From: Bdellovibrionales bacterium | Lineage (GTDB): Bacteria > Bdellovibrionota > Bdellovibrionia > Bdellovibrionales > Bdellovibrionaceae | Assembly: GCA_018266295.1 (NCBI GenBank) | Contig: JAFEAQ010000008.1 | Location: 248,001 to 312,000 of the forward strand | Direction: 5' to 3' | DNA: 64,000 nucleotides | Shown here: in pieces, positions 6,801 through 49,433 of the stretch | Layout: the number at the start of each line of letters is the position of its first letter | Position numbering within the stretch: position 1 is the stretch's first letter | The notes under the pieces: model-generated | What the model saw: the letters and a program-made list of their open reading frames with translations, nothing else | What the model was told of the DNA's origin: nothing | The model's database searches: none | Position numbers and translations under genes: made by a program

Positions 6801-7550
6801 ATGAAGCATCAGATCGTCGGCGTACTTACGAGCATCTTTAATAAGCGAAAGCAGCGAAACCCAAAGTATTCGCTGCGTTCATTTGCAAGGGATCTAGAGA
6901 TCTCTCCGGGGCGCCTGTCACGTATCTTGAACGAAAAGGATGAACCGGGCCCTAAGTTTATCGATGCTATCTTAAAGACAAAGACTCTCGGACCGGCAGA
7001 ACGCGAAGAGATCCAAAAGAGTGTTCAAAACTCCCGTAATCCATTTACTCACATCCGTGATAATGAAGAACTCAGCCTCGACAAAGATGAAATCCAAATC
7101 ATCTGGAGTTGCATGGCGATCTTCAGCCTTTTGAATGCTCACCGCAAAGGCTTCTCGGAGCATGTGATCGGCGAGCGCATGGGGCTGAACAAGACTGAGA
7201 CTAAAGAGTGCCTGGCCTTTCTTTTAAAGAATAAAGCTATTAAGCAAACCGCCAACGGAGACTATGTTTCAGCGACTGATAAAGTGATGCTGCCACGAAA
7301 GCAGATGGTGGATTTATACTATTCCCACGTCGATTTCCTTAAAAATACCTTCGCAAGAAGCCAGGAAATCGCCCGCGGCGAGACCCTGTACGGCAACATG
7401 ACAGCGGCTTTGACGGAGGAAAGTGTGAAGAAAGTGAAAAAAATCCTCATAGCCGCCCTGACAAAAATTACCAAGGAAGCCTCCACAGCAGGGGAGAAGC
7501 GGGTCTTCCATATCCTCGCAGAGGTCTTTCCAGTCGATAAGGGCCAATAA
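6801..7550 (+). CDS. TIGR02147 family protein (paralogue 1)
   Basis: 249 residues. The N-terminal 60 residues carry the family signature, with RNPKYSLRSFARDL followed by ISPGRLSRIL, which reads as a helix-turn-helix-like region. The rest is the helical TIGR02147/DUF4423 domain. The family is common in Bdellovibrio and Fibrobacter. The N-terminus suggests a DNA-binding regulator, but function is not established as far as I know. It begins 2 bases after the c-heme lipoprotein stop, so it is part of that operon and may control it. The next gene is a clear paralogue (same length; both keep NPxYSLRSFARDL and SPGRLSRILN). Confidence 0.85.
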   Translation: MKHQIVGVLTSIFNKRKQRNPKYSLRSFARDLEISPGRLSRILNEKDEPGPKFIDAILKTKTLGPAEREEIQKSVQNSRNPFTHIRDNEELSLDKDEIQIIWSCMAIFSLLNAHRKGFSEHVIGERMGLNKTETKECLAFLLKNKAIKQTANGDYVSATDKVMLPRKQMVDLYYSHVDFLKNTFARSQEIARGETLYGNMTAALTEESVKKVKKILIAALTKITKEASTAGEKRVFHILAEVFPVDKGQ

Positions 7551-7587: not shown

Positions 7588-7610
7588 CGAACCCGATATA
7601 CACGTTGCCC

Positions 7611-8369
7611 ATGAGTAAACAAAGAGTAGCTTCCATAATCAAAAAGGCTTTCGCAGAACGACAAAAAAAGAACCCGCAATATTCATTGCGATCTTTTGCC
7701 CGTGACTTAGATGTTTCTCCTGGCCGTCTTTCGCGAATTTTGAATGGTAAGGATGAAGCCGGAAATCGTCTAATTTCGGCCGTTCTCAGATCCAAGGTTT
7801 TCACCGAGGAGGAGCATCAAGAGCTCACTCAGTGCCTGAAAGAAATGGAAAATCCATTTACAGGTGAATACCAATATCAAGGTTACGATCTTGATCCACA
7901 AGATGTGGCAGCGGTTTGGCATCACCTCGCGGTTTTCAACCTGATCACGATTCCTGGTGCTGAATGCACTGAAGAAGTGATTGCGAAACGTCTGAACATG
8001 CAAATCGACGACGTGAAGCGCAGTATTGATTTCTTGCTCCGTCAAAATTCAATTCAGAAGCACGAAAACGGTCACTACGTTTCTCACTCTGAGCAAATGT
8101 ACTTCTCACCAAAGCAATTCAACGAGATCTATGAAGCTCATTTGAATTACTTGGTTGAGAATAAAAAAAGAGCCCTCACTGGGGGCTCTGAACAGACATT
8201 CTTTGGCTTAGTAACTGTGACTTTGAGTGATGAGGCCTTCCAGCGTGCGAAGCTCATGCTCAATAAGACCATGGCTAAGATTTGCAAAGAAGACCAGCAA
8301 AGTCCTGATAAAAAAGTCTTCCACGTGAGCGCGCAACTCTTCGCGGTTGACGAAGGCCCTACCACTTAG
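7611..8369 (+). CDS. TIGR02147 family protein (paralogue 2)
   Basis: 252 residues from the ATG at 7611; a TTG two codons earlier is possible, and neither has a strong ribosome-binding site. It has the same architecture as the gene before it: RQKKNPQYSLRSFARDL and SPGRLSRILN at the N-terminus, then a helical domain with FHVSAQLFAVDEG at the end, matching FHILAEVFPVDKG in paralogue 1. This is a tandem duplication that has since diverged. The 60-bp gap holds candidate operator repeats, so it may be transcribed on its own. Its stop codon overlaps the stop of the convergent carboxypeptidase gene by 4 bases. Its coding region contains the terminator of that gene (8163-8189). It probably binds DNA, but this is not proven. 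Confidence 0.85.
   Translation: MSKQRVASIIKKAFAERQKKNPQYSLRSFARDLDVSPGRLSRILNGKDEAGNRLISAVLRSKVFTEEEHQELTQCLKEMENPFTGEYQYQGYDLDPQDVAAVWHHLAVFNLITIPGAECTEEVIAKRLNMQIDDVKRSIDFLLRQNSIQKHENGHYVSHSEQMYFSPKQFNEIYEAHLNYLVENKKRALTGGSEQTFFGLVTVTLSDEAFQRAKLMLNKTMAKICKEDQQSPDKKVFHVSAQLFAVDEGPTT
8163..8189 (-). terminator. Intrinsic terminator of the carboxypeptidase gene, embedded in the opposing CDS
   Basis: Read on the minus strand, AGAGCCC / GGGCTCT form a 7-bp GC-rich stem (8169-8189) with a 7-base loop, followed by seven T residues (8163-8169). It lies about 180 bp past the stop of the minus-strand zinc carboxypeptidase and inside the coding region of the second TIGR02147 gene, where it encodes KKRALTGGSE. 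Confidence 0.75.
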
Positions 8370-31885: not shown

Positions 31886-31914
31886 TTGAGACTGGATGTG
31901 CCGAAAAGTATGGA
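31886..31914 (+). promoter_or_regulatory. Predicted promoter of the collagen-like lipoprotein gene
   Basis: TTGAGA (31886-31891), 17-base spacer, TATGGA (31909-31914); then AAAGGAGG (31923-31930) and the GTG start at 31937. The short leader and good spacing make this a fair sigma70-type call. Confidence 0.5.
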
Positions 31915-31936
31915 TACCTTACAAAGGAGGTATTCA

Positions 31937-32845
31937 GTGAAAACTTCGACGTATATTCGTTTTGCTGCCTTACTTTTTGTAATGTCCTCTGCGGCTTGCT
32001 TAGATAAAGGAACTCAAGACTCCGCATCTGCAAGTTCAAGCGAGACCTCAGCCTTCTCTCAAAGTGTCTCATCCATGGACGCGGCAGGAAACTGCACGCC
32101 TGGGAAAGAAGGTTCAATAATCTATGATATTGCAACGAAGGCATTCTACATGTGTGCCGGTAAAAGCTGGATGGCGATCGAAATCAATAGTGTGAAAGGC
32201 GACAAAGGAGACACGGGTGCAACAGGTCCTCAAGGACCACAAGGTGTCGCCGGAGCGCAAGGTCTTCAGGGTATTCAAGGTGCGCAGGGTCCACAGGGGC
32301 CGCGCGGGCCAACGGGTTCTGGTGGGCCGTCGGGTTTTGTAATTCGTGATGCCAACCATGACGTAGCGGCAAGAGTTATTCAATTCAATACCGGAGGGTA
32401 TATGTCTGGAGTAGCGCCTGGGCAAAGTGCACTTGTCATGTATGATGGTGGTGAACTTATTTGGGTGAATACGCTCACGGGTAAGTTTGATGGAAAAGCT
32501 GACATGGTCTTTTTCTCGGGCCCGAATTGCACGGGCACCCCATATAAGCGAGGTTTAGCGGAATATGGTTCTCCGGATGTGCTCAATAGGATTTATGTTG
32601 GTAAGTCTGATTATGGTAGTTATATAGCTTTTTACAAAGCTGTAGGTACAGCTACAGGTGTTATTTCAACTGTTAGTCAGCGAACCTTCAACCAAACGCC
32701 AGGGATGGGAACATGTTCAGAAGGTGGCCAAGCTTTTAATACGAGCTTATCCGGGGTAGGCCCAATGGTCGTTTTACAGCAGATTCCTATAGACAGCCTC
32801 AAAGATCTTTCGAGTGTTGCACCATTGAAAGTGGAGTTCGAATAA
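31937..32845 (+). CDS. Lipoprotein with collagen-like Gly-X-Y repeats
   Basis: 302 residues from the GTG at 31937, chosen because AAAGGAGG is six bases upstream and it begins a lipoprotein signal ending MSSAAC. After a Ser-rich stalk and a small Cys-containing region ([12 protein letters not shown]...FYMCAGKSW) comes a collagen-like run of about 14 Gly-X-Y triplets (roughly residues 95-140), rich in Gln and Pro (for example [13 protein letters not shown]). The C-terminal domain of about 160 residues has two Cys and no family I recognise. Bacterial collagen-like runs form trimeric rods, so this is probably a surface-displayed trimer; its target is unknown. Closed by the terminator at 32870. 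Confidence 0.82.
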
Positions 32846-45602: not shown

Positions 45603-46562
45603 ATGTGTAGAGAAAAAATAAAATATCACCGACGCTTATTGGCACTTTTAATACTTGTTTGCTGCTCTCGAGCATATTCGCAAACACTTCCGTTTACATT
45701 TTGGAAAAAACCACCCAGTCCACCTATTGTGATCGTGATTACCTCAGGCCCTTCGTGGACTGTGCCTTCAGACTGGAACAACTCGAATAATAAAATAGAG
45801 CTCATTGGCGGCGGAGGCGGATCAAAGAGCAGCGGCGGTTGCAATAATGGCCGTGGTGGCGGTGGTGGGGGAGCGTACGCTCTTAAGAATAACTACACAC
45901 TCACTCCAGGTGCTTCGATTAACATTCAGGTGGGCGCGGCCGGAGCCGCCACCGGCACTGCCGGAGGAGATACTTGGTTTGTTAGCAGCGCAACGATTCT
46001 TGCTAAAGGCGGCAGTGGGGCTACGAGCTCCAGTGGCGCCGCAGGAGGAGCGGCTTCGCCGACGAGTCTTGGTGATGTGACTTACGCCGGTGGCAATGGC
46101 GGCAGTGGCACGAGTTGGGAAGGTGCCGGCGGTGGCGGTGCTGCCGGGCCGAATGGAGCAGGCAAAAATGGCGGCTCTGCGGGAAGCGGTGGAGCGGGCG
46201 GCGGAGGCGGCAGTGGTGGTGGCTCCGCGGGAAGCAATGGAACTGCCAGCGCTGGCGGTGCCGGAGGAAATAATTTTGCCGGCGCCGGTGGAGGCGCTGG
46301 TGGAACTGGCAACGGCACGGCTGGAACTGATGGTGCCGGCGGTGGTGGTGGTGCTGATAGTAAAAGTGGTGGCAATGGTGGTTCAGGATCGGACTTGTCT
46401 TCAGTAGACGGTGCCGGAGCTGGTGGCGGCGGCGGAGGAGGTGGCGATAGTCGTCTTGGTGGCAATGGTGGCGGTTATGGCGGCGGAGCGGGCGGTTCCG
46501 GTGATTGTGCCGGAGGCGCCACTGGAGGAGCGGGCGTGATCGTTGTTACATACACGCCCTGA
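45603..46562 (+). CDS. Secreted glycine-rich surface protein with PFxFW N-terminal motif
   Basis: 319 residues from the ATG at 45603. The signal peptide (LLALLILVCCSRAYS) is followed by QTLPFTFWKKP, which matches IPFGFWRKH in the protein at 48735-49433. A short beta segment (WTVPSDWNNSNNKIELIGGGG) opens a domain of about 230 residues dominated by Gly, Ala and Ser, with repeated GGxGGxG. The end AGVIVVTYTP is the closing strand typical of glycine-rich tail-fibre-like domains. These polyglycine-helix or beta-prism domains bind receptors in phage tail tips. Likely a cell-surface adhesin; prey recognition is an inference. Confidence 0.72.
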   Translation: MCREKIKYHRRLLALLILVCCSRAYSQTLPFTFWKKPPSPPIVIVITSGPSWTVPSDWNNSNNKIELIGGGGGSKSSGGCNNGRGGGGGGAYALKNNYTLTPGASINIQVGAAGAATGTAGGDTWFVSSATILAKGGSGATSSSGAAGGAASPTSLGDVTYAGGNGGSGTSWEGAGGGGAAGPNGAGKNGGSAGSGGAGGGGGSGGGSAGSNGTASAGGAGGNNFAGAGGGAGGTGNGTAGTDGAGGGGGADSKSGGNGGSGSDLSSVDGAGAGGGGGGGGDSRLGGNGGGYGGGAGGSGDCAGGATGGAGVIVVTYTP

Positions 46563-46566
46563 GTTT

Positions 46567-48534
46567 TTAGTTCAGTTTTAAACCTGCAGAACGCGCCAAC
46601 CAGTAAACATACAAGTAGTCGACAGCGTTGTTGGTGCTACCGCGTGAAGAGCTGCCTTGGTAACCGAAGTACAGGCCTTTCCACATGAAGTTGTCGCTGA
46701 TACCTGCACTTTCAAACGCAGGGTAAGAGTACAAGCTTTCGAAGAACCATTCGGTTGCGCCAATTTTTTTGTTGGCAGCTTTCCAGAACATAGCCGGAAG
46801 GGGGCTCACGCACCATTCATTGCTGATAGTGTGATCGTAAGTAAGATCCATTTGCGGGCGCGGATATGGGAACTCACGCAATGTCCACGACGAGAAATCC
46901 ACGGCGCTCATGAAGTACGTGTCTGTGAATCGTTTACGAAACTGATCACCGCGAGTGCCTTTTGAAAAAGCGTATTTGTAAGCCGCAAACGTATAATAGG
47001 CATGACGAGTCGGCGAGTAAGTCACCCATGCATCCATCAAGCGCTCGCGCAGACGGTCGCGGATTTTATTTTCGCCGAGCATATCAGCCAGAGTAATTTC
47101 ATTAATGAAATTCAAGATGTTGAGATTCACTCCGCTCCAGTCGCCAATTCCGTTCCAATAGAAAGTGGTGTTGAAAAGGTAACCGCCGAAAGCGATGTCT
47201 TTATCGCGATACATCTTGTGGAATTTTGTTTTATAAACTGGATCCTTTAAAATTAATGCCGCGATTCCATAAGCTGCCGGTTTATTGCCTTCTTTCTCTT
47301 CAAGAATATTGAGCTCTAAAAGGCGCTTGGTTGCTTGAACCATGTCAGCGCGGAATGGATCGTTCTCAGGAATCACGATGTGGGCCCACAGCAACGCGTG
47401 CGTAATCCCGCGAACCATGTCGTTGTTACCGCCATCCAGCCAAGTGATATCCGAGTAGTCACCGGTGCCACGATGCCAGCGCTCGCCCAGATTTTCATTG
47501 CCTTTGTAAGGCATGATCGAGCGTGCGAATTGTTTTTTATCGCCCGTGATATTGAGCAAGATGAAGATCCCACGGAGTGAGCGCTTCATGTTCTCGATTG
47601 CTTTTTGATCTTTTGTTACTTGGTAGCGCATAGCTTCGGTCGCTACATACATGCCTGTCCAAAGACACGCATCGTAGTCGTTGTGCTGACCGGTCATGTT
47701 GCCATTGCCGTCAAAGGACGCGTAGCTCACGATGCCGTATTCGTTCAGACGATATTTTTGCATATCGACGCCAAAGCCGTCGGCTTTTTGATCCAGAGTC
47801 GAAGCATAGGCATTTCTGCGCATCAGCGATTCAGACAAGCTGATGGTATCCACTGGCTTATTCGCAACGCGAATGATGTCGTGATTTCTGCGATAGAAGT
47901 TAAAATCCGTTGGATCAAAAACCACGATGGGATTTTCATTCTTAAATTCAGGACGGTCTGCATATTTCTTAATCGTAGGATGCTCATCAAACTTGATGCG
48001 CGTTTTTGCGATCTTCATTCCGAGGCGAACCACGGCGGGAACGCCTTTATCACCTTTAGCATCGAGAAGTTGGCGTTCATTCTGATAGGGAGCTTGCGCG
48101 CCCACAGCTTGTGGGTTGCTGATTTTTTCGTAGAAAGAACCACCTGCCGGTGTGCTGAACTGAGCTTGGTACTCGTCACCCTTCGCTTCGTAGCTCACAG
48201 AGAAGTCCGTTGTCGTATTGTAGAGCTTCGGATCGCGGGTGAAGCCTTCGGCGCTCACCATGAAGTCGCTGTTTTTCAGAGAAAACTTCGGGTTGCCTTG
48301 GGCATCGGTGTCACCTTGCCACACTTCCTGAACTTTGAGGTTTTGGAATTTGTATTCGTCGTAAGTGATCACGCGAGTGACGAGGGTACCGCCATCATAA
48401 GGACGAAATTCGATTTGGCCGGTGTAAGAACCGTGCTGGCTATTGATTCCGCGCACTTGCCAAAGGCCGGCAGGAACCGCAGCGAAGCTCAGGATGGGGG
48501 CGAAAAGTAGACTCGTAAACACAAGCGTTTTCAT
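46567..48534 (-). CDS. Large secreted protein, function unknown
   Basis: 655 residues. Signal peptide MKTLVFTSLLFAPILSFAA. The N-terminal quarter looks beta-rich (VPAGLWQVRGINSQHGSYTGQIEF). The remainder is helical with conserved-looking aromatic/acidic stretches (NDYDACLWTGMYVATEAMRYQVT, ERWHRGTGDYSDITWLDGGNNDMVRGITHALLWAH, YWNGIGDWSGVNLNILNF, ESLYSYPAFESAG). The spacing suggests an alpha/alpha toroid like glycoside hydrolases or polysaccharide lyases, but I see no diagnostic motif and do not assign an activity. Ends 4 bp from the convergent glycine-rich gene. Confidence 0.7.
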   Translation of the reverse strand: MKTLVFTSLLFAPILSFAAVPAGLWQVRGINSQHGSYTGQIEFRPYDGGTLVTRVITYDEYKFQNLKVQEVWQGDTDAQGNPKFSLKNSDFMVSAEGFTRDPKLYNTTTDFSVSYEAKGDEYQAQFSTPAGGSFYEKISNPQAVGAQAPYQNERQLLDAKGDKGVPAVVRLGMKIAKTRIKFDEHPTIKKYADRPEFKNENPIVVFDPTDFNFYRRNHDIIRVANKPVDTISLSESLMRRNAYASTLDQKADGFGVDMQKYRLNEYGIVSYASFDGNGNMTGQHNDYDACLWTGMYVATEAMRYQVTKDQKAIENMKRSLRGIFILLNITGDKKQFARSIMPYKGNENLGERWHRGTGDYSDITWLDGGNNDMVRGITHALLWAHIVIPENDPFRADMVQATKRLLELNILEEKEGNKPAAYGIAALILKDPVYKTKFHKMYRDKDIAFGGYLFNTTFYWNGIGDWSGVNLNILNFINEITLADMLGENKIRDRLRERLMDAWVTYSPTRHAYYTFAAYKYAFSKGTRGDQFRKRFTDTYFMSAVDFSSWTLREFPYPRPQMDLTYDHTISNEWCVSPLPAMFWKAANKKIGATEWFFESLYSYPAFESAGISDNFMWKGLYFGYQGSSSRGSTNNAVDYLYVYWLARSAGLKLN

Positions 48535-48590
48535 AGGTTTTCTCCTCGGGCTCCTCTATACAAGAAGGAGGCCAAAGAGTTCGGGAGCAA

Positions 48591-48642
48591 GCTGACACCT
48601 AATTCCACGTAAAGCCCGGGAACGTGTAAAATTCACCGGGCT
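48591..48642. repeat. Partial TAGGTG repeat and copy 3 of the GGAACGTGTAA loop element
   Basis: Minus strand 48591-48606 reads GGAATTAGGTGTCAGC, 14 of 16 bases identical to 42991-43006. Next to it AGCCCGG (48613-48619) and CCGGGCT (48636-48642) form a 7-bp stem whose 16-base loop begins GAACGTGTAAAA. Both lie in the gap between two minus-strand genes. Confidence 0.5.
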
Positions 48643-48734
48643 GTCTAGGGATTGGTCAGTGAGAAATCAGTGCGAGTCAACTAGCGTTCTTTGATCGCGA
48701 TGACAGCGCCGAGATAGCGATTGCCTGAGGTGCT

Positions 48735-49433
48735 TCAGCCAGTCGTTGTGAGATTGCCCGTGGCTTGAGGGTTCAGATAAAGACGATCGAAGATGTAGAT
48801 CGACTGAGCATTCGTCGTGTCGACGTTGGCAGCTCTTTGAGTGAAGCCTGTGGGGGCTGTGAGTGTGCTTGCGCGCGAGGTTTCGGTTGTGCAGTGAACG
48901 ACTCGGGTCGCTGTTGAGACTGTTGTCAGGCCCGTCATCGATACAGAGCTCGTGCTTACAGTGCCTGCGCTGAAAACGGGGGTGGTATCTTCGGGGGTAT
49001 TTGTGTCTGGCGATGAGTAAGCGACAATCACACCCATCGAGTAATTCGCAGATTCCGTGAAGTTAAATGTGAAGCTAGCAGCCTCAGAGCCGTCGACAAT
49101 TCTGCGGTAAACGGAGGTGATGTATTGATTTCCACTTGATTGAATTGAACCAAGAAGTGTCCAGCCTGAAGGAGTTACTGTTGAATTTGTCGTGTCATAA
49201 TCATTGGTCCATATACATGCGTAAAGAACATCGTTGGTAATGACGCCACTGGGTTTTGCGAGGACGATACTTGCGCCGCTGGCTTGAGAGATAGCGGCGC
49301 CGGCACTTCGAAACTCCGCTCCATGCTTGCGCCAAAATCCGAAGGGGATGGTGCTGCTACTGCCATGAAATGAAAATAGGAATAGGATTGAAAAAGCGAA
49401 GACACGAAGCCATACAGAGGTTGAAATACGCAT
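48735..49433 (-). CDS. Tail-fibre-like surface protein with PFxFW motif; apparent premature UGA
   Basis: 232 residues to the TGA at 48735-48737. Signal peptide VFAFSILFLFSFHGSSS, then TIPFGFWRKH, the same post-signal motif as in the glycine-rich protein at 45.6 kb. The body is a beta-sandwich-like domain of about 190 residues (SGWTLLGSIQSSGNQYITSVYRRIVDG, SMGVIVAYSSPDTNTP, TVSTATRVVHCTTET) of a kind found in phage/adhesin tips. After the TGA the same frame continues STSGNRYLGAVIAIKER to a TAG at 48681-48683, which reads like the true last strand of the domain. The gene is therefore either recently truncated by 16 codons, read through, or affected by a sequencing error. Confidence 0.65.
   Translation of the reverse strand: MRISTSVWLRVFAFSILFLFSFHGSSSTIPFGFWRKHGAEFRSAGAAISQASGASIVLAKPSGVITNDVLYACIWTNDYDTTNSTVTPSGWTLLGSIQSSGNQYITSVYRRIVDGSEAASFTFNFTESANYSMGVIVAYSSPDTNTPEDTTPVFSAGTVSTSSVSMTGLTTVSTATRVVHCTTETSRASTLTAPTGFTQRAANVDTTNAQSIYIFDRLYLNPQATGNLTTTG

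Follow-up and report, generated by a model that had tools for sequence, protein, structure and literature searches.

The locus examined here raises the question of why two secreted proteins with different bodies carry nearly the same short peptide at the same place. The window, a stretch of 64,000 nucleotides of a Bdellovibrionales bacterium (assembly GCA_018266295.1, contig JAFEAQ010000008.1, positions 248,001 to 312,000), encodes a glycine-rich and a beta-rich protein whose predicted mature chains both start with a peptide of the PFxFW type, hereafter the tag (Table 1). Both peptides lie where the initial annotation placed them, each directly behind a signal-peptide-like stretch. We found the tag in a fixed position on many different bodies and at the starts of phage tip genes, and gene neighbourhoods connect it with the C-terminal domain of fibres. 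It is probably a docking plug by which detachable adhesin tips are mounted on fibre shafts, in the way that phage gp38 caps gp37. The window belongs to a 4.22-Mb genome in 23 contigs (G000), the sole member of its genus in our kinship table, which we place near Bdellovibrio because the best named-genome relatives of its FtsA are Bdellovibrio sp. metagenome-assembled genomes, at no more than 83% identity.

A loose PFxFW pattern at the DNA level matched 28 times in G000 and 30 times in a backwards control; as such plain counts show no excess, the tag is discriminated only by position and frame, 21 of the 28 matches lying in frame directly behind a signal-peptide-like stretch. The tighter pattern NTNCCNTTYNSNTTYTGGARR gave 16 matches against none for the backwards control, and a profile covering also the variants PFAFFK, PFAFLK, PFAFMK, PIGFWK and PMAFWR returned 29 matches at E ≤ 1.6e-5, the next standing only at E 0.48. 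This profile was built largely from these same 29 sequences; the member at C10:184736 was matched without being part of it. The initial annotation had staked its idea on the motif recurring among secreted proteins, and across the genome it was present on 27 further ones. The consensus reads [QAHGSF]-[LTMIV]-[ILVTM]-P-[FMI]-x-F-[WFML]-[KRN], with the proline and the second phenylalanine conserved in 29/29, the tryptophan in 23/29 and Lys/Arg in 28/29. Leader type and cleavage were judged by motif, without a predictor. The residue before the predicted mature start was A, S or G in every case (18, 9 and 2, respectively), compatible with a signal-peptidase-like site, and the tag proline invariably stood three residues past it. 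Mature position +1 was Q in 14 proteins, A in six, H in five, G in two, and S and F in one each; a cysteine there, the lipoprotein signature, was found in 0/29.

Such a segment could be a functionless remnant of shared ancestry or of 5'-end gene conversion, or mere signal-peptidase context, since common N-terminal segments of paralogues are often inherited and related glycine-rich proteins account for 14 of the 29 bodies. Mean pairwise identity, however, was 62% for the tag, as against 13% for the signal peptide and 10% for the stretch just past the tag, and the tag proline uses all four codons across the 29 genes. Identity confined to the tag, combined with free synonymous codon use, indicates selection on the peptide rather than recent DNA copying. 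Since unrelated bodies also bear the tag, as do phage proteins without a signal peptide, a remnant is very improbable.

That the bodies behind the tag differ, as initially annotated for the window pair, applies to the whole set, in which about nine body types were distinguished; 12 of the 29 proteins were scanned against family libraries, the others being sorted by clustering, alignment and reading. There are 14 glycine-rich bodies, five RCC1 propellers, two Cys-rich proteins, two long repetitive beta/Gly proteins, two phage head-spike-like proteins and one each of Kelch, LamG, fibrinogen-like (GGGWT) and the beta-rich protein of the window. The glycine-rich profile (A3) matched the solved tail fibre of phage Pam3 (7ypx/7yfw, E 2.7e-11), and relatives of this body are encoded on 24 viral contigs; the viral rows of an alignment (A7) shared 44-55% identity with the window glycine-rich body, after omission of L253, L254 and L257 (stop within the match) and also of L242, L247, L248, L250-L252, L259-L261, L263 and L264. 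Free-standing viral glycine-rich proteins begin at the body (LTSGTSWTVPxDWNNSNN), without leader or tag (L243 and L244 from 1986, L255 from 1989, L256 from 1992). An AlphaFold2 (AF2) model of the window glycine-rich protein had a mean pLDDT of 70, residues 196-282 being mostly below 50, and all four of its fold matches below E 0.001 were to the Pam3 fibre and the Bxb1 tail tip. The body of L163 matched the head spike fibre of a gene transfer agent (GTA; 6tb9, E 2.2e-15) and NF048003. Six proteins were scanned against PHROGs, of which four matched tail, head or structural families and two matched unknown families only. Five of the seven RCC1 genes in G000 are tagged, and one of four Gly_rich_2 matches lies in an open frame outside the tagged places; as untagged frames of both kinds exist, the body does not dictate the tag.

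The same peptide starts proteins encoded by phages. Viral contigs scanned for IPF[GA]FWK gave 16 with a match, which in 13 fell away from the protein start or within a short frame. In the others (L289 and the nearly identical L294, and L295), a protein of 225-234 aa without a signal peptide starts with MSLIPFGFWK, the match falling at residues 4-10. This protein has a LamG domain (PF13385), and in L294 and L295, where the neighbours were read, its gene is flanked by a fibre gene and a phage tail assembly chaperone gene (PF16778). The fibre ends in a domain of about 110 aa, here called the acceptor; in relatives, fibres encoded immediately ahead of tagged genes have ends that align with it. Searched with the acceptor domain alone, viral contigs gave 13 loci. 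All five independent fibres at 61-79% identity (L368/9, L370, L371/2, L373 and L374; the seed phage L366/7 set aside) have a tip gene within 20 bases downstream, starting with MSLIPFGFWG, MSLIPLGFWS, MSVNKLGFWG, MSIIPFSYWK and MIPFSFWGG, respectively. Behind the L375 fibre (40% identity) the next gene starts with MPFGIHRH, and L376-L378, with short partial acceptor matches, have no such tip gene behind them. In a control over 743 viral open reading frames (ORFs), the N-terminal motif occurred in 15, of which 14 were these tips, redundant loci included, and the other (L300) was an internal start on a contig preselected by the pattern. LamG tips from other viral loci, read for 23 of 35 loci, all lacked a PFxFW-type start. 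An IPF[GAS]FW-type peptide thus stands at the tip N-terminus, in the bacterial copies only after predicted removal of the leader. The initial annotation had compared the proteins with phage tail fibres, a likeness that these tip proteins and their gene-level link to a fibre domain bear out.

Among genomes of the order, the tag profile matched 17/140 at E ≤ 1e-4, against 0/228 of the other genomes of the phylum, with one to four tags per matching genome other than G000. As the profile includes sequences from many of the matching genomes, this count is the yield of an iterative search, which overlooked a true tag in G176. The PFxFW pattern, run over 368 genomes of the phylum, gave mostly noise outside the order, none of eight returned loci being post-signal; of 20 further stretches selected from the order and the phylum, 13 carried post-signal tags, 14 in all. 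A literature search returned no paper naming the motif, the three hits with 'PFxFW' strings being unrelated by title.

The acceptor is more widely distributed in the order, with 126 profile matches in 63/140 genomes; G000 has five matches in four genes. It was present in 15/17 tagged and in 48/123 untagged genomes (Fisher p 1.2e-4, uncorrected for kinship; genomes tagged only at E ≤ 0.01 were counted as untagged). At 69 of the 126 matches (30 top loci, 19 drawn mostly from genomes with tags, and 20 of genus g4) the gene behind the fibre was read; an ORF of 150 aa or more adjoins the fibre at 52 of them, and in 48 cases it encodes a hydrophobic N-terminal segment. A tag lies directly behind an acceptor fibre at five loci, in G145 (AQLIPFAMM, degenerate), G157, G162, G176 (AQFVVPFSYWK) and G215 (AQLIPFTNWEK), and the gene behind an acceptor fibre in G183 encodes AQMIPHGLWRK; the tag profile contained the sequences of G145, G157 and G162 and was built without those of G176, G215 and G183. 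At 12.5 bits or more, this profile matched 6/31 leader-bearing neighbours among the first 49 loci, against 2/296 in the background, both of these themselves tagged. A shorter core, [GASTI]F[WF][KRQGSN], occurs in 16/48 adjacent leader-bearing genes and in 6/300 untagged background proteins (p 6e-11, descriptive), the expression having been picked after inspection and missing three of the five true fibre-side tags (G145, G176 and G215). Neighbours with the core only include GAFWKRK, SPSFWKQ, LGFWGSK, GGFWQKR and VGFWQ, and plug types beyond PFxFW seem, from these sequences, to be common. In genus g4 (L410, L412, L413, L415, L427 and others), acceptor fibres are followed by secreted proteins with shorter plugs, for instance GGFWQKR, LGFWGSK or VGFWQ.

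The initial annotation had spoken of a sorting or assembly signal. As an N-terminal counterpart of the known sorting tags at C-termini, or of the export signal of surface lipoproteins, the tag might be read by a dedicated secretion or surface-anchoring machine. The fixed post-cleavage position on 29 proteins would suit such a role, and so would its use with two kinds of leader. RCC1-bodied tagged proteins have RRxFL-type leaders (L145, L159, L161 and L084, and L146 from a longer start), which we take to be Tat-like; such leaders occur also on tagged proteins of relatives (L039, L040 twice and L050, less clearly L037 and L049), and the other tagged proteins have Sec-like leaders. A tag common to both should act after export across the inner membrane. 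The tips and acceptor fibres of G000, moreover, are not neighbours. Against this role, the phage tips start with the peptide and have no signal peptide, which makes a pure sorting signal less likely, and in phages and relatives alike the peptide sits behind acceptor fibres. No recurrent envelope machine was seen among the neighbours of tagged genes; TIGR02147 regulators recur there instead. We consider an envelope sorting or anchoring signal unlikely, and of the two functions initially proposed it is assembly that the phage tip starts and the gene-level link to fibres favour.

TIGR02147 regulators, with 41 match rows in G000, lie within 1.5 kb of nine of the 29 tagged genes, against 1.6 expected (0/5000 shifts); within 3 kb they accompany ten (2/5000 shifts) and within 1 kb six (16/5000). 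This shift test used 40 regulator places, including the added window ORF 6801-7550, with the sizes of contigs C17 and C22 assumed. The enrichment suggests that tips may be expressed one by one. Several of these regulators pair with small secreted 'GNGG' proteins, and two regulators of this type lie in the window (Table 1).

Several observations weigh against the docking of tips on acceptor fibres. In G000, all 29 tagged genes lie apart from the four genes for acceptor fibres, three of which adjoin a secreted gene of their own with another N-terminus (GYYNLGAMI, FTTPTGLSSGF and DVTWTSG). Among the adjacent leader-bearing genes, 32/48 lack the core motif, and two tagged genomes have no detected acceptor (G132, 85% complete; G197, 93%). 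In six annotated phages with distant acceptor copies, the gene that follows encodes a different N-terminus (MFVGMGANG, MFNTLTRMG, MPLGATRLN or MSNVKKLMM, and in two cases an unrelated start), so that PFxFW would be one of several plug types. Finally, the acceptor resembles the XD1 fold, which is regarded as a spacer in the branched tailspike TSP4 of phage CBA120 (PMC8825819).

The genome arrangement could also mean that the 29 proteins of G000 are former fibre tips that now dock elsewhere, on another filament or an outer-membrane protein, as the lack of adjacency and the differently starting neighbours of three fibres would suggest. Tags apart from same-genome acceptor fibres are nevertheless found also in G175, G178 and G180, and the acceptors beside true tags are diverse in sequence, so the acceptors of G000 could serve its tags. 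A change of docking partner appears improbable, somewhat more so than a sorting role. Three of the four fibre frames in G000 (L379, L380 and L381, on C4, C19 and C11) reach a contig end, their shafts being incomplete here for that reason, and these contig ends are probably due to repetitive fibre genes breaking the assembly.

For docking on fibres, the following arrangement can be proposed. Each tagged protein would be a separate adhesin tip, exported by Sec or Tat, on which signal peptidase I would expose a mature N-terminus of the form X-phi-phi-P-F-x-F-W-K; this hydrophobic, Trp-bearing strand would insert at the end of a trimeric surface fibre, in its C-terminal domain, the fibre resembling the mosaic adhesive trimers (MAT) of Bdellovibrio bacteriovorus. 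One shaft could then carry many alternative heads, G000 having 29 tips for four acceptor fibre genes, which are presumably the ones that these tips use. Tailed phages would have the same arrangement, with a leaderless tip encoded directly behind a fibre with the acceptor domain. Physical docking, its stoichiometry, surface exposure and a role of the tips in prey recognition are what we infer from the gene-level evidence.

The closest parallel is gp38. In T2-type phages, S16 and PP01, gp38 is likewise a separate tip on a trimeric fibre; that of S16 sits as a single copy on the gp37 trimer through an N-terminal attachment, with three tryptophans inserted in hydrophobic pockets (PMC6851490). Its receptor-binding body is also glycine-rich, and heads can be swapped if the N-terminal part matches (PMC12892980, PMC9608196): PP01 gp38 with its first 113 residues replaced by those of T2 fits the T2 fibre (PMC12892980). 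Unlike the tagged proteins, which have a linear peptide of about ten residues, gp38 uses a three-helix domain. No such domain with three tryptophans was seen in the tagged proteins, in which about nine residues with one W precede the body, and the AF2 model of the window glycine-rich protein passes from the leader to the first body strand (residue 42) without a helix, the confidence being moderate to low there. The tagged tips, moreover, are bacterial, have leaders and vary far more in body type. Adjacency of tip and fibre genes as for gp38 was seen in the phages and at five loci of relatives, and for 0/29 in G000.

The initial annotation had further suggested that the proteins may be short members of the fibre-like chimeric surface proteins of Bdellovibrio, of which the MAT fibres are the published family. 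MAT proteins have a beta-rich domain of about 130 aa right behind the signal peptide and carry their tips within the fibre chain (PMC10769870); the words 'operon', 'neighbour' and 'gp38' do not occur in the main text of that paper. The likeness lies in predator surface fibres with exchangeable ends. The G145 fibre upstream of a tagged gene matched Bd2133 (8ond, E 9.2e-10) and 8ojn (E 5.6e-8) in phmmer, and the G000 fibre at C19:345k (L162_8) matched 8ojn weakly (E 0.0018). This G000 fibre and the G145 fibre have a common N-terminal domain (36% over 169 aa), and by sequence the latter is MAT-like, with a beta-helical shaft of MAT type and a post-signal N-terminal domain that may correspond to the published MAT domain. 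The tagged proteins differ in being separate chains that lack the start domain of about 130 aa. The window proteins were rejected as MAT members: when proteins of the neighbourhoods were clustered by blastp (E<1e-4, coverage >40%), the tagged ones stayed outside the cluster of the fibres L162_8, L266_10 and L268_11, and no more than a few residues separate the tag from the body. The idea of adhesins related to phage fibres can largely be upheld, with the proteins better described as probable tips than as short MAT fibres.

Other fibres were compared as well. In the branched tailspikes of the TSP4 type (gp10/gp9-like XD), trimeric beta domains also hold another receptor-binding protein; there it is XD2 and XD3 that bind partners, and the accessible part of the report describes no short N-terminal plug (PMC8825819). 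The Pam3 tail fibre gp24 and the GTA head spike fibre Rcc01080 are solved relatives of two body types, the matches covering the bodies and not the tag, and the glycine-rich domain of Pam3 forms the end of the fibre itself (PMC9608196).

The AF2 model of a viral acceptor was a seven-strand sandwich with a mean pLDDT of 86. Foldseek gave nothing below E 0.001, the best match being a phage capsid spike at 4.1e-3. VIA listed this same capsid spike, a baseplate entry, tailspikes and T4 gp9 at Z 8.1 to 6.7, as well as 6o38 (Z 7.1) and 4dny (Z 5.5), before a drop to Z 3.7. The model resembles the XD1 fold of TSP4 and T4 gp9 (Z 6.7-7.1), and gp9, 6O38 and 4DNY are described as relatives of TSP4 XD1 (PMC8825819). 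As Z values below about 8 can reflect a common arrangement, the fold supports a phage virion domain rather than specifically a socket. A peptide has been seen bound at the Bd2133 tip domain (PMC10769870), and a relation of the acceptor to this domain was considered; it found no support, 8ond being absent from the matches listed for the acceptor profiles A4 and A5, whose best PDB matches were fibronectin-type and taken as chance. Neither 6F45 (S16 gp38) nor 8ond was among the fold matches listed, an absence that excludes nothing.

In the window itself, the Pfam scan gave no match for either tagged protein. The 232-aa beta-rich protein belongs to no family in the Pfam or NCBIfam libraries, and its body had no relatives among the genome contigs, phages and viral contigs searched; a genome search gave three relatives within the order. 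The nearest found is the G215 gene directly behind an acceptor fibre, in which the last strand is kept within one frame. In the window gene, the 17 in-frame codons past a TGA (STSGNRYLGAVIAIKER) resemble this last strand, which suggests that in this assembly the gene is broken shortly before its end. The other window features are given in Table 1.

Table 1 Coordinates of the tagged genes and of further features in the window.
Feature	Position	Strand	Basis or remark
Tagged glycine-rich protein, 319 aa (leader, tag, Gly_rich_2-like body)	45603..46562	+	profile match
Signal-peptide-like leader of the 319-aa protein, predicted cut after AYS	45603..45680	+	motif only
Tag of the 319-aa protein, QTLPFTFWKK, predicted mature N-terminus	45681..45710	+	PFTFWK at 45690-45707
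Tagged beta-rich protein, 232 aa	48735..49433	-	tag profile match; homologue known in G215
Signal-peptide-like leader of the 232-aa protein, predicted cut after GSS	49356..49433	-	motif only
Tag of the 232-aa protein, STIPFGFWRK, predicted mature N-terminus	49326..49355	-	PFGFWR at 49329-49346
In-frame TGA, then 17 codons of conserved C-terminal sequence and a second stop	48681..48737	-	232-aa gene
655-aa protein between both tagged genes	46567-48534	-	signal-peptide-like start; no Pfam match at E<=1
Protein with collagen-like GxY stretch	31886-32845	+	leader ends near a Cys
TIGR02147-type regulator	6801-7550	+	
TIGR02147-type regulator	7605-8369	+	

How predators recognise many prey is partly explained by MAT fibres, in which a tip is fused to each shaft. 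We regard it as an evenly balanced proposition that Bdellovibrionales took over a docking code of phage fibre tips and, by one plug of about ten residues behind Sec or Tat leaders, mount dozens of unrelated heads, many of them phage-like, on a few MAT-type shafts, as a combinatorial and locally regulated prey-recognition repertoire. If so, a plug and socket would multiply the repertoire without new shafts, a simple sequence test would mark adhesin tips in related genomes, and a short exchangeable peptide would be at hand for mounting proteins on phage and bacterial fibres.

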